Origin: a virus
IMG/VR virus record: IMGVR_UViG_3300006916_000263
Span: 1 to 28,955 of that record
Reading direction: 5' to 3' (one strand)
DNA length: 28,955 nucleotides
Shown here one piece after another: positions 14,761 through 28,411 of the stretch. The notes beneath the pieces were generated by a model that did not search any database, had not been told where the DNA came from, and saw only the letters and a program-made list of their open reading frames with translations. Made by a program: the position numbers and the translations under genes. Within the stretch, counting starts at the first letter, position 1. The number at the start of each line of letters is the position of its first letter.

Positions 14761-15240
14761 CTATTTTAACAACCAGGTGATATCTTCTTGACCACTAGGC
14801 GTCTTTATAAGATAAGGATTTTCTGGCTTATTTCCAACTGTTTTAATGACAGCTTGATTTCTTGAGTTAAGATTAGAAAAAGAAGATAATTGAGCTCTAG
14901 CTAGGTCCATTCCTTGCTGTCTTAATCTTAAAGCTGTATCTCTTACATATAGTGCTGTTGCAAATGCCATTACTAAATCATCGTTATATCTATCTTGAGC
15001 TTGAGCTTTTCCATTTTTCCATATAAAAACTCTCATCTCTCCTAAAAGTCTTTTAGATTGAATTGTTACTCCTTTATCTCTTATATACTCAATCATCTTA
15101 GCGACAACTAAAGGTCTTGTTCTAGATGACATAGTAAAGCCAGGAACTAATTTATCTCTTTCAAACTTATGCATATAAGATTCTACTGTGTCTAAATTAT
15201 TAGTCGGACTATAATATAAGTTCTTATATTCTCTTTCCAT
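14761..15240 (-). CDS. gp17: Terminase large subunit, C-terminal part (rest of the nuclease domain)
   Basis: This 159-residue piece starts at an ATG that overlaps the stop of the upstream terminase part (TAATG). The frame stays open to 15261. It continues the nuclease domain with LVPGFTMSSRTRPLVVAKMI, RVFIWKNGKAQAQDRYNDDL and LYVRDTALRLRQQGMDLARA, all standard for gp17-like terminases. The YNDD aspartate is the third metal-binding acid of the RNase H-like nuclease. The other two lie in the upstream frame. A one-base shift would read IEK-V-MEREYKN without interruption, so this may be a true split gene, a frameshift site or a sequence error. Confidence 0.85.
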   Translation of the reverse strand: MEREYKNLYYSPTNNLDTVESYMHKFERDKLVPGFTMSSRTRPLVVAKMIEYIRDKGVTIQSKRLLGEMRVFIWKNGKAQAQDRYNDDLVMAFATALYVRDTALRLRQQGMDLARAQLSSFSNLNSRNQAVIKTVGNKPENPYLIKTPSGQEDITWLLK

Positions 15241-16334
15241 TACTTCTCTATAGTCGCCCATCCAATGTTAGCGTTTTCTACCACTAATAATGCATCGTTA
15301 TATTCTGATGCTATACCTACAAGTATGTTGCCAAAATCTTTAGGTCTAATCTTACCTTTATATTCTCCTACTTGTGTGCAGCTTTCTAAATCAAATATAT
15401 GAAAAGCAGAATAGTCAGTAGCATCTCCTCTGGCAACATCGGCTACTACCATATATGACTTAGAGTAGTCTACTCCTTCCCAAATCCATAAATTACTATC
15501 AACCCCTCTTCTTTCCATTGGATCTTTTTCATATGTCTTTTCATAATATAACATATCTTCTGGTTCAAATACTGTATCACCAGAACTTAAAAAGTCACAG
15601 TCACATTCTTGACCGGCCATACGAGGACCTAAGTCAGCATCTTGTTGATCTCTCCATGATTGATCTCTTTCAGGATGTACCGTCCAAGGTAATCTTATAG
15701 GTAAAAAACTATTTTCTCCAGTTTCAGCTTTTTCCCAAGTTAAATGGAACCAGTTACCAATACCGTTTGGAGTTGATAAAGCTAAACATTGTCCACCGGT
15801 AGCTAAGGTTTGTTGTGCTGCAGTAAATGTCTCGTCAATATTATCTATAAACGCTGCCTCATCTATAAGCAGCAATGATACTGCTTCCGATCTTGCAGCA
15901 TCTGAATTAGATGATTTAGCAGCTATTCTAGAACCATTTTTTAATCTTAGAGATAATTTGTTTTTCTCTACTGATTTTAGTCTTAACCACTTAGGTAATT
16001 GATCGTACATAAAGATTACCTTAGTTACAAGGTTACGTGCAGTAGATTGAGTAGTAGCTAATGCTAGTATGTTTTTATCTTTATGGAATACCATTAACCA
16101 TAGACTGTAAGCAGCTGATAAAGTAGATATTCCTAGCTGTCTAGACTTAAGAGTAATGATATATTGCTGGTCTTTAAAATGCTGAAGTACTTTTTCCTGA
16201 AAAGGATATAAAGCAAATAGTATACGTCCACGAGTAGGGTGCTGTATATAACAGTACTTTTTCATGAAGTAGATAGGATCTTTTGCACATTTAAGATATT
16301 CTTGTGCAATTATCTTTTTTATATTCTGACTCAT
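15240..16334 (-). CDS. gp17: Terminase large subunit, ATPase domain and start of the nuclease domain
   Basis: This 364-residue part holds the DNA-packaging motor ATPase. A Walker A-type loop reads TLKSRQLGIST (61-71). The usual GK(T/S) lysine is replaced by Ile69, while K63 lies at the start of the loop, as in lambda gpA. Walker B is LLLIDEAAF (154-162, acids D158/E159), and the coupling motif is LSTPNG (186-191). The nuclease domain begins with VVADVARGDATD (first metal acid D299) and VVENANIG (second acid E353). The frame then stops at IGWATIEK, and the remaining nuclease acid is in the next frame. It starts 2 bp after the nuclease-like gene upstream and has no Shine-Dalgarno sequence. Confidence 0.93.
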   Translation of the reverse strand: MSQNIKKIIAQEYLKCAKDPIYFMKKYCYIQHPTRGRILFALYPFQEKVLQHFKDQQYIITLKSRQLGISTLSAAYSLWLMVFHKDKNILALATTQSTARNLVTKVIFMYDQLPKWLRLKSVEKNKLSLRLKNGSRIAAKSSNSDAARSEAVSLLLIDEAAFIDNIDETFTAAQQTLATGGQCLALSTPNGIGNWFHLTWEKAETGENSFLPIRLPWTVHPERDQSWRDQQDADLGPRMAGQECDCDFLSSGDTVFEPEDMLYYEKTYEKDPMERRGVDSNLWIWEGVDYSKSYMVVADVARGDATDYSAFHIFDLESCTQVGEYKGKIRPKDFGNILVGIASEYNDALLVVENANIGWATIEK

Positions 16335-25064: not shown

Positions 25065-26267
25065 TTATTCATTTTTAACTTTATCTTCCCAGTTTCTAAA
25101 AGTAATATTACCTAACATGTAAGCTTCTTTCTCTATCTCAACTAATTCATCATCTTCGTTGGTATTTGTAGTTCCATATCCTTTTAGTCTACCTTCTAGG
25201 TTTTGAATATGATGAACCATTTCATGTACAAAAGATCTCATAACATCTTTAGGATGTCTACCTTCTACGTAAAGCACTACTTCTTTTAGTTCTGGATTAT
25301 AATAAGCTGTTCTTCCAAAAAAGTTAGAAGCTTCAGCTATATCTCTTTTTATTTTTATTTCCGGTAAAGGAGTTATATTCATTTTTTGATCTAACATATA
25401 TTCTAATATAGATCCCATAAATGGAGTATAATCAAAACTAGGACTACTATATTCATCTTCTACAGTAATTCTAATATGATCTTGCATAAACTTTACCTTT
25501 ACATTATCGCTCCCTATTTGATTTTTTACTCTTTTGTATAAAGTAATTAAATGAGCTCTATCTTTAGATCTTAAGACAGATCTAGGAGCTATAGGAGCAC
25601 CTGAATTATCTTCTTCTACTTCTTTAGATTCAAAAAGATCAGTAATGACCTCTTCCATCTTAGCTTTCATTTGTTCAGATACTATAGTTGATTTTAACAT
25701 ATTTAATATTTTTAAAATCTCCTCACTAGATAATTTAGGAGGAAAAAAATCTTTTATTTCATCTAAGTTACCACTTAGTATTGCTTTTCTAAAATTAGTA
25801 GCTCTAATACCACTACTTAGTTTAGATGTAACTGATAATCCTTTTACATTAGGGGTCTTCTTAAATGTCGATATTCTTTTTAAATCAACATAGTCTTCTT
25901 CAGACCTTACTCCTGTTACTGCATAAAATTCTTCGTCAGGATTATTAGCAGCATAATCTCTAGCTTCAACCATCGGGTTTTTATCGCTAGCTATAATTTC
26001 TACGTTAGGTAGATATTTCTTATAAATATTCCATATTTCCTCAGCTTGACGTTGAGTAATTCCATTTCTTTCTCCTGCTCCTATAAAAACAACTACTTTA
26101 TCAGCTTTATAAATTCCATCAAAGTCTTTATTCATTACAGCAGCTCCAGCATCTTTATAGTTATCCAGGTCATAAACTTTACCTTGGATACCACCGAGTA
26201 AAGACTCAGTTATTTCAAAGTGTCCTTTATGAGGGGGTTTAAATGCTCCTGGATATAATGCTATCAT
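25065..26267 (-). CDS. Nucleotidyltransferase-like and zinc-metallopeptidase-like fusion protein (400 aa)
   Basis: Residues 1-180 have the cytidylyltransferase/NMNAT fold marks: MIALYPGAFKPPHKGHFEIT with the HxGH motif at 13-16, VVFIGAGERNGITQRQAEEI, and a late YAVTGVRSEEDY. Such enzymes transfer a nucleotide onto a phosphate-bearing substrate. The middle part is helical. The C-terminal domain holds SFVHEMVHHIQNLEGRLKGY with H348-E349-xx-H352, and acids at 374-381 (ELVEIEKEAY), one of which could be the third zinc ligand of a gluzincin peptidase. The joining of these two domains is unusual. The ATG overlaps the kinase stop as ATGA, so the genes are coupled. Confidence 0.8.
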   Translation of the reverse strand: MIALYPGAFKPPHKGHFEITESLLGGIQGKVYDLDNYKDAGAAVMNKDFDGIYKADKVVVFIGAGERNGITQRQAEEIWNIYKKYLPNVEIIASDKNPMVEARDYAANNPDEEFYAVTGVRSEEDYVDLKRISTFKKTPNVKGLSVTSKLSSGIRATNFRKAILSGNLDEIKDFFPPKLSSEEILKILNMLKSTIVSEQMKAKMEEVITDLFESKEVEEDNSGAPIAPRSVLRSKDRAHLITLYKRVKNQIGSDNVKVKFMQDHIRITVEDEYSSPSFDYTPFMGSILEYMLDQKMNITPLPEIKIKRDIAEASNFFGRTAYYNPELKEVVLYVEGRHPKDVMRSFVHEMVHHIQNLEGRLKGYGTTNTNEDDELVEIEKEAYMLGNITFRNWEDKVKNE

Positions 26268-27196
26268 GCTAAAAATGCTTGAACTTTTTGATCTATCTCT
26301 GCCGGTGTATCACTTACAAGTTGAGAAGTAAAGACTGGGCTGTAAAGTAATTCAGCTATATTCTCTAAAACAGCATCATATCTTTTCTTACTGTCTTCTT
26401 TTTGTTTTCTAATAGTTTTTAACTTTTTAGACATTTTATCATCTCCAGGTCCTACTCCATTTTTTCTATACCAGTCTTGAAAATACTTTTTTAATCCTCT
26501 ATCTTCACTGTAGTTATCTCTATCGTAATCCATATGAGAGGTTGCTTTATCAAACTCTTGTTGTTCTTGATCAGATAGTTCAACAGGGTCTCTAAAAGAA
26601 GATACGCCTACATCGTGCTTTTCGTTATATTTTTGTAAAAAGTCTTTTATGCCTTCTACTCCATTTTTTGCAGCTGTGTTAAATCCTTTTATTTCATCTT
26701 CATACTCTTTTCTTACATTTACAAATAGAGAAAAGTTTCCTTTGGTCAATTTAATATACTTTTCGATTAAAGAATAAACATTTCTCCAGGTTTGAAATAC
26801 TGCTGATGCCGGAACGTTTCTATCAGAGTCTCTAAAGAAGTTAGAAATATATGCTTGCATAGGATGAGCATATACCATTACCATATAAACACTATATCCT
26901 TTACTAATAATATCTTCTACCTTAGTAGGATTAGATGCTGTAGTGTCCCAAACAAACGTTCGTTTCTGGTTAACGAATTCCTCTGCCTCTTTGTTGGCTG
27001 CTGCTGTTCCTGGATTCAATTTGCCGTATGCCGGATGATTGGGATCCTCTATAAATTTGTCTGGGTTGACGAGGGGTAATGAGTCCAGGCTCAATTGGTT
27101 GAGTAGGAAAGTTTTCCCTGCTCCTGATCCCCCTGCCATTATAATTAGTTTCGGACGGTCTGATTTTTCTAAAATCAAATCTTTTAAGCTGATCAT
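26264..27196 (-). CDS. Zeta-toxin-like P-loop kinase (310 aa) with a capsid-targeting-like N-terminus
   Basis: The protein has a clear Walker A, MAGGSGAGKTFLLNQL (K28, T29), then LVNPDKFIEDPNHPAYGKLN, FVWDTTASNPTKVEDIISKG and YSVYMVMVYAHPMQAYISNF. This order resembles the zeta toxin/polynucleotide-kinase-like group, which phosphorylates small molecules such as UDP-sugars or nucleic-acid ends. The substrate here is unknown. The first ten residues, MISLKDLILE, precede the fold and look like a capsid-targeting peptide. The C-terminal third is helical and charged. The first 75 codons overlap the lipoprotein gene in another frame. No antitoxin-like partner is visible nearby. Confidence 0.8.
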   Translation of the reverse strand: MISLKDLILEKSDRPKLIIMAGGSGAGKTFLLNQLSLDSLPLVNPDKFIEDPNHPAYGKLNPGTAAANKEAEEFVNQKRTFVWDTTASNPTKVEDIISKGYSVYMVMVYAHPMQAYISNFFRDSDRNVPASAVFQTWRNVYSLIEKYIKLTKGNFSLFVNVRKEYEDEIKGFNTAAKNGVEGIKDFLQKYNEKHDVGVSSFRDPVELSDQEQQEFDKATSHMDYDRDNYSEDRGLKKYFQDWYRKNGVGPGDDKMSKKLKTIRKQKEDSKKRYDAVLENIAELLYSPVFTSQLVSDTPAEIDQKVQAFLA

Positions 27197-27635
27197 TGTT
27201 ATTATTGTTATTATTAAAATCTATTCTCGGTACTATTCTACTTTCTGGGTTTGGATATTTTCTTACATCTAAATTAGATCCTCTTATACCTTTCATAGGC
27301 GTAATAGGTCTAAAGTTATATACCGGCGGTTTATACCAGAAGTCGTAAGTTTGAAATCTAGGATAGCTAAAATATGGAGAATGATAATAATTATAATATC
27401 CATAAGGAGCACCCCAGTAGTTATATCCCCAATTGAAACTTCTAAATTGAAATGTATCAAAGGTTTTAAAATTTTGTTTTTGAAAATCTCTATACGGTAC
27501 TGCTAAAGTATCTCCTGTAGAAGTAATAGTTAAAATCTTATCTATCTTAACATATCCTTTTTCGGCATACTTAAACGAGCCGCAGCTAGTAAGTAACCCG
27601 AAAGAAAAAATTAAAAGTATCCAAATATGTTTCAT
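26970..27635 (-). CDS. Phage-encoded lipoprotein with a low-complexity Asn/Arg/Ser-rich tail (221 aa)
   Basis: It begins with a signal peptide MKHIWILLIFSFGLLTSC, whose lipobox L-L-T-S-C18 would be lipidated. The body is aromatic (FNWGYNYWGAPYGYYNYYHS) and then turns Asn/Arg/Ser/Gln-rich, with a run of seven Asn at 27195-27215. This composition is common in lipoproteins of Bacteroidota and their phages. The last 75 codons (GRGIRSRENF to QQRGRGIR) are read from the same DNA as the start of the kinase in another frame. Their composition continues the earlier tail, so the reading looks genuine. It could alter the host surface or exclude other phages. The ATG overlaps the upstream stop as ATGA. 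Confidence 0.75.
   Translation of the reverse strand: MKHIWILLIFSFGLLTSCGSFKYAEKGYVKIDKILTITSTGDTLAVPYRDFQKQNFKTFDTFQFRSFNWGYNYWGAPYGYYNYYHSPYFSYPRFQTYDFWYKPPVYNFRPITPMKGIRGSNLDVRKYPNPESRIVPRIDFNNNNNNNDQLKRFDFRKIRPSETNYNGRGIRSRENFPTQPIEPGLITPRQPRQIYRGSQSSGIRQIESRNSSSQQRGRGIR
27195..27215 (-). repeat. Trinucleotide repeat encoding seven asparagines
   Basis: Seven AAT/AAC codons in a row lie in the lipoprotein gene and end one base inside the kinase ATG. Such repeats are prone to slippage. A change of a whole unit would alter the lipoprotein length without touching the kinase frame. Confidence 0.8.
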
Positions 27636-28411
27636 AATTTTAAAGTTGTTGGGTAACTATTATAAATAGGTTCCGTAACTGGGTTTTCTAATTTATAAAG
27701 TTCGTATATCATTTTAAATAATTCAAAATTCTTATCTATATCATCTACTTTAATTACCTTCCATCCTTTACCTTGTATGTTTCCTTTAACTTTTGAAGGG
27801 CCTCTAGTAGAAGCTTTTAGCCAGATAATTCCAGTTCTATCTATCTTTTGACCATTTTCTTGTAATGCTTTTGCATATGAAGCAAGCTGTAAGTCATATG
27901 ATTTATGAATACTGTTAGATGTTTTTAAATCTAATAACCATATTTCATCATTCATTTTAACTACTAAGTCAGCAGTTCCGGCATACTTATGTTCATCTGA
28001 AAATACAAACTCTTCGGTAGATATAAGTTCAGGTTTATGAGTCGACCAGAAGTCATAAAACTTCAGTATCATTTCCCAAACGATTTGAGAATATCTAGCA
28101 TTTCCATAATCATCCATCCAAGAAACCTCTTCTCCTTTCACTAACGCTTCTGCGGCTTCATGAACTTGTGTTCCTTCTTTACCTGCTCTTCTCATAATAA
28201 GATCGGCGTTATGCCCAACGTCTTTGAGCCAAGACTCAAAAAACTTGTTCTTGGGCATATACTGGAGTATCGTAGTTACGGACGGGTAAAATACTCCTTC
28301 GCCTCTCTTGTAAACTCTCCTATCGAGAAAATTAATTTGTTTTAACTCTGGGTTAAAATCCAATCTGTTCTTTTCATTCTGCTTGAGAATGTTCATACCT
28401 TGTTTTATCAT
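27632..28411 (-). CDS. RecB/Cas4-like PD-(D/E)XK nuclease (259 aa)
   Basis: The protein has an N-terminal FYPSVTTILQYMPKNKFFES and GTQVHEAAEALVKGEEV, the histidine-containing entry motif of RecB-type nucleases. These are followed by HKYAGTADLVVKMNDEIWLL and DLKTSNSIHKSYDLQLASYA, which hold the D...DxK metal site and the QLASYA motif. This architecture is typical of phage exonucleases of the Cas4/RecB group that act in recombination or DNA breakdown. It starts inside the primase stop codon (ATGA) and its own stop overlaps the lipoprotein start, so it belongs to the same operon. Confidence 0.88.
   Translation of the reverse strand: MIKQGMNILKQNEKNRLDFNPELKQINFLDRRVYKRGEGVFYPSVTTILQYMPKNKFFESWLKDVGHNADLIMRRAGKEGTQVHEAAEALVKGEEVSWMDDYGNARYSQIVWEMILKFYDFWSTHKPELISTEEFVFSDEHKYAGTADLVVKMNDEIWLLDLKTSNSIHKSYDLQLASYAKALQENGQKIDRTGIIWLKASTRGPSKVKGNIQGKGWKVIKVDDIDKNFELFKMIYELYKLENPVTEPIYNSYPTTLKL
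27659..27668 (-). promoter_or_regulatory. Possible internal promoter box before the lipoprotein
   Basis: The coding strand reads CCTATTTATAATAG, close to the common box. It lies inside the last codons of the nuclease gene, 23 nt before the lipoprotein ATG. It could give the lipoprotein and kinase separate expression. Confidence 0.3.

Follow-up and report, generated by a model that had tools for sequence, protein, structure and literature searches.

Analysing a 28,955-base window of viral DNA (the whole stretch under study), we found that 227 bp (26970..27196, minus strand) are read in two different frames, as the C-terminal tail of a lipoprotein and as the P-loop end of a kinase, and that, judging from sequence comparisons, this overlap represents genuine and selected dual coding (probability of about 0.93). 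In almost all relatives, the synonymous codons of the kinase are chosen to keep the lipoprotein frame open and coding for a basic Arg/Ser/Gln/Pro-rich tail. Overlapping genes are common in viruses, most cases resting on one conserved pair, and whether overlaps are traps or reversible is debated. Here, a single gene pair exists in 84 versions with the overlap and 14 without, has switched independently about ten times, and includes both remnants that decay after loss and autonomous tails standing in for the overprinted one, making the cost and reversibility of dual coding directly measurable. A catalytic P-loop, among the most constrained protein motifs, can thus accommodate a second protein, itself under selection, in a different frame.

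The window is a fragment of a T4-like phage, with gp23 capsid and gp20 portal genes (Pfam) and a terminase (Pfam, PHROGs). Judged by capsid protein, the closest isolated phage is Flavobacterium phage immuto (69%), which makes a host among the Bacteroidota probable. The terminase large subunit gene (14761-16334, minus strand) is apparently split into two ORFs of 364 and 166 aa in different frames, which overlap by 22 bp at 15240-15261; it is a single ORF of about 524 aa in phage immuto, and the split is due to an error in sequencing or to a genuine frameshift.

The lipoprotein gene (26970..27635, minus strand, 221 aa) begins with a signal peptide and a lipobox, LTSC with Cys18, both read in the sequence (MKHIWILLIFSFGLLTSC), followed by an N/Y/W/R-rich middle and a basic tail that includes the stretch around QIYRGSQSSGIR. 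Directly upstream lies a PD-(D/E)XK exonuclease gene (27632..28411, minus strand; PHROG 298, E=1e-40). The kinase gene (26264..27196, minus strand, 310 aa), Zeta_toxin/PNK-like according to Pfam, PHROG, AF2 and Foldseek, shares its codons 1-75 with the last 74 codons plus stop of the lipoprotein, codon position 1 of the lipoprotein being codon position 3 of the kinase. The ORF coordinates thereby confirm the same-strand overlap reported in the initial annotation, and the two kinase motifs that it named are both present within the overlap: the Walker A loop GGSGAGKT (27110..27133, minus strand), with glycines and lysine invariant in the A1 alignment, and NPDKF (27053..27067, minus strand), with NPDK invariant in the same alignment. 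As it had also noticed, the overlap is much longer than the others in the window (1-34 bp) and richer in GC than its flanks (0.45-0.46 against about 0.28-0.36), a rise that results from the avoidance of third-base T, because stop codons of the lipoprotein frame would begin with a T at that position. By contrast, the view that the tail simply keeps the composition of the upstream part had to be abandoned, the tail being R/S/Q/P/G-rich and the preceding 75 residues N/aromatic/R-rich.

Relatives were collected from IMG/VR by scanning it twice with kinase profiles, once with a single kinase and once for the lipoprotein, yielding 225 usable loci and 135 distinct kinases, of which 99 remained under 95% nucleotide identity. 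All comparison genomes are uncultured contigs from an extensive family of marine viruses that infect Flavobacterium-like bacteria, with pairwise nucleotide identities from 58% to 95% in the first set of 23. The overlap spans 206-242 bp in 84 of the 99 kinases, 158 bp in one and, counted in the lipoprotein frame, 8-116 bp in 14. A simple lipobox pattern fits 78 of the 81 untruncated overlap-type relatives, and the other three have a lipobox-like Cys. The lipoprotein of locus L130 is in frame but ends early, at +158; at least in that locus, the tail can do without its final third. No relative of the kinase was found in a scan of cellular genome contigs, and when two kinases and two lipoproteins were compared by tblastn with 50,697 phage records, no match emerged among isolated phages. 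The nearest isolates by capsid protein, phage immuto included, carry an unrelated gene at the site.

Both frames are open beyond chance, and kinase-silent sites show purifying selection on the second, lipoprotein frame. For each whole kinase gene, synonymous codons were permuted and lipoprotein-frame stops counted over the first 68 codons, which gave a mean of 6.2 stops and a probability of an open frame of 0.0004 per sequence. Yet no stop was present in 82 of the 84 real overlap-type sequences, and the remaining two had one stop each, at the natural +206 end. The other sense frame contained 8-13 stops, matching the prediction of its own null. We then scored 4-fold degenerate kinase sites in 44 disjoint pairs. 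Kinase-silent changes creating a stop in the lipoprotein frame were absent from the overlap (0 observed vs 89.4 expected) and close to expectation downstream (147 vs 159). Observed/expected ratios within the overlap were 0.58 for radical lipoprotein changes, 0.66 for conservative ones and 0.93 for changes silent in both frames, against 0.95, 0.98 and 1.08 in the rest of the kinase, where stop-making changes reached 0.92. Pairs of no-overlap relatives showed 7 stops for 6.3 expected. Third-base T, in addition, fell to 0.10 in the overlap vs 0.38 downstream, and stood at 0.31 vs 0.37 in the no-overlap relatives. The initial annotation had proposed silent-site variation among relatives as the test of its dual-coding claim; at kinase-silent sites of the 44 pairs, lipoprotein-altering changes are indeed reduced, and the claim draws further strength from an overlap kept in 84 of 99 dereplicated relatives, from the frame-specific avoidance of both stops and amino-acid changes across these independent pairs, and from sister contrasts. 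Residue identity of the tail across relatives was dropped as evidence, the third frame scoring equally high (0.491 vs 0.479 in the lipoprotein frame), which indicates that tail conservation is mostly imposed by the kinase. The dual-coding signal detected by these comparisons thus resides in the avoidance of stops and a moderate constraint on amino acids.

Other explanations of the open frame were weighed against these results. If the lipoprotein had merely lost its stop, a neutral extension could run on into a kinase whose amino acids happen to give few stops. Kinase conservation alone does account for much of the tail residue identity, and some sequences stay open by chance when the overlap's own codon use is permuted, but this passive scenario is very unlikely given the whole-gene codon null (0.0004 per sequence), the contrast in silent stop-making changes between the overlap (0 vs 89) and the downstream region (147 vs 159), and the 4-13 stops accumulated in the same stretch wherever the in-frame lipoprotein is missing. 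Alternatively, the stretch could be conserved as nucleic acid, through an RNA structure or a regulatory or packaging site, in line with the lower kinase synonymous change in the overlap (0.20 of 4-fold sites vs 0.26 downstream). The constraint is nevertheless frame-specific, doubly silent changes occurring at 0.93 of the neutral level and stops at 0; moreover, the constraint vanishes where the lipoprotein is absent. An RNA structure in the overlap was rejected, as no fold beyond shuffles (z 0.21; consensus -0.97 kcal/mol) and no covariation were detected, and we regard conservation as nucleic acid as extremely improbable.

Equally hard to credit is a lipoprotein-kinase fusion, produced by frameshifting within the overlap, as the real product. 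At any point of the overlap, a +1 shift would be enough to link the two frames, and in locus L158 a one-base difference at the overlap end does fuse both genes into one ORF; however, the near-identical L161 is intact, so the L158 fusion is probably a sequencing error. Furthermore, any shift located in the P-loop or beyond it would cost the product its ATP site or disrupt it, the kinase ATG is conserved with its A-rich unstructured leader, and no conserved slippery site was noticed on inspection by eye. Selected dual coding of the tail and the P-loop region therefore remains the preferred reading.

Relatives of the kind that the initial annotation had named as evidence against dual coding, with a lipoprotein-frame stop near 27196 and an intact kinase, do exist: all 14 exceptions have an intact kinase and 4-13 stops in the lipoprotein frame. 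They are nevertheless natural controls and not refutations, because in each the lipoprotein is either missing or encoded in another frame ending at the kinase start. Six of them (L018, L118, L220, L194, L197 and L198) have no lipoprotein gene at the site, the upstream exonuclease gene ending -69 to +4 from the kinase start (L194 offering only 564 bp of upstream sequence), and no relocated lipoprotein was found on the partial contigs of L018, L118, L220, L197 and L194. In the other eight (L074, L171, L201, L207, L208, L209, L219 and L232), the lipoprotein lies in the other frame, ends between -8 and +8 of the kinase start and bears its own S/R/N/P-rich basic tail. Third-base T averages 0.31 over the 14 exceptions, and the intermediate values of L018, L074 and L171 (0.15-0.18) point to a recent loss of the overlap in these codon-biased loci. 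Mapping the overlap state onto the tree of the 99 kinases requires 11 changes, of which well-supported branches impose no fewer than 10; as reconstructed from this tree, overlap and autonomous tail have been interchanged about ten times.

As non-overlapping homologues encode a comparable tail autonomously, the tail itself is inferred to be a genuine component of a lipid-anchored envelope protein that is largely disordered. Overlapped tails are R/S/Q/P/G-rich with a net charge of +6 to +20, and autonomous tails of the same lipoprotein family are N/S/R/P-rich with a net charge of +8 to +15. Many overlapped tails close with SSRRKN; homologues encoded elsewhere in the genome (L147, L155, L156 and L244) have no overlap and display R/P/T/S-rich tails closing with NSRRKN. 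A basic low-complexity C-terminus is therefore a property of the family, the overlap being one of two ways of encoding it. The AlphaFold2 model of the lipoprotein has a mean pLDDT of 50, with no confident structure beyond the N-terminus. Phages with kinases only 50% and tails 40% identical can share N-terminal parts at 94% identity, which points to exchange of the lipoprotein between phages upstream of the overlap, the tail tracking the kinase it overlies. A variable, exchanged, lipid-anchored and basic-tailed protein fits a candidate envelope function such as superinfection exclusion. At the different site, the homologues of L147, L155, L156, L172 and L244 precede a gene starting MDNFDLQKYL or MDNFNYQ, and a diverged kinase paralogue (L258-L261) was observed in three of the four viral contigs among these and in the L244 genome. 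Lipoprotein homologues were also observed in contigs filed as bacterial or archaeal MAGs (L244, L245 and L246, one labelled Woesearchaeota); these are probably phage contigs binned wrongly, given the phage-like genes that surround the homologues in L244 and L246.

Overlapping genes, and lipoprotein overlaps in spanins, are already known. As in spanins (PMC6139136), an outer-membrane lipoprotein here shares part of its coding DNA with a second gene read in a different frame; spanin architectures likewise interchange between overlapped and separated forms during evolution, and o-spanin tails can be unstructured. However, although the lipobox (LTSC, Cys18) agrees with the outer component of a two-component spanin, this assignment was rejected, as the partner is a cytosolic P-loop kinase and not an inner-membrane i-spanin with an N-terminal TMD. 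Neither is it a unimolecular spanin, its C-terminus being a basic hydrophilic tail and not a transmembrane domain. The protein also differs from spanins in being longer and basic-tailed, in having its 3' end over the 5' end of the kinase, and in that no lysis gene was found near the overlap pair. Similarities extend to overprinted viral genes (reviews PMC8227390, PMC6195259; survey PMC7017920), in which a second frame lies over an older conserved one and the newer product is compositionally skewed and predicted disordered; unlike them, the present gene pair has a natural record of both gains and losses which, together with the autonomous tail equivalents, supplies internal controls. This gene pair, with its P-loop carrier frame and repeated switches, was not found in the records searched, which included a brief survey of the literature.

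The kinase start is preceded by an A-rich, unstructured leader (27197..27220, minus strand) that also codes for a poly-Asn stretch of the lipoprotein and contains no Shine-Dalgarno sequence. Across the 84 loci, the kinase start has a mean MFE of -0.9 kcal/mol vs -6.8 and -3.9 nearby, and few Shine-Dalgarno-like motifs. In place of Shine-Dalgarno sequences, low structure and adenines lying upstream tune the ribosomes of Flavobacterium (PMC6847099). Given these preferences and the A-rich unstructured position of the ATG, the likeliest mode for the kinase would be independent internal initiation, as usual in Bacteroidota, with the upstream frame translated through the site, and not stop-start coupling. 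In non-overlapping relatives, the stop at the start codon may instead allow termination-reinitiation coupling. As the P-loop is ancestral to its superfamily, the P-loop end of the kinase is presumably the older frame, onto which the lipoprotein tail would have been overprinted by shifting or losing its own stop. A bolder and rather doubtful extension is that the overlap acts as an evolutionary switch, envelope lipoprotein cassettes being traded between phages and taking their tail either from their own DNA or from the alternative frame of the resident kinase P-loop. If so, an exchanged lipoprotein would gain a working tail at once from the recipient's kinase gene, and a conserved enzyme core would serve as shared tail donor for a fast-swapping surface protein.

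By sequence and fold, the kinase is zeta-toxin/PNK-like (PF06414 Zeta_toxin, E=1.1e-8, 35.2 bits vs a cut-off of 22.3; PHROG 2071, ATPase, E=1.1e-7), from which its biochemical role is predicted. Its AF2 model (pLDDT 80) has zeta toxin 1gvn and PezT 2p5t as best Foldseek matches, then PNK 4gp6, consistent with the P-loop kinase fold that sequence and structure comparison identify in zeta toxin/PezT and bacterial polynucleotide kinases. However, the match with zeta toxin/PezT is confined to the N-terminal core, with a TM-score of about 0.37 for the top zeta-toxin structure, and Pfam/PHROG annotation identified no antitoxin gene among the neighbours (exonuclease, lipoprotein and nucleotidyltransferase-like). 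The latter gene (25065-26267, minus strand) carries a GAFKPPHKGH motif and a C-terminal HExxH (FVHEMVHHIQ), which suggests a putative fused metallopeptidase-like domain at the C-terminus.

In T4, the capsid-targeting sequence (MKTYQEFIAE) is a short N-terminal stretch that the prohead protease removes by cutting after (I/L)xE. The kinase N-terminus, MISLKDLILE (27167..27196, minus strand; E10 invariant in the A1 alignment), is like this sequence, by resemblance only, in ending with (I/L)xE, and on this resemblance the kinase may be a candidate for packaging and injection. N-termini like MKLxxLILE|A ending in (I/L)xE recur in many proteins of the window, those of the genes ending at 27196 (the kinase itself), 25059, 22391, 21374, 18075, 11963, 8649, 7763, 6612 and others, possibly delineating a set of packaged and injected phage proteins.
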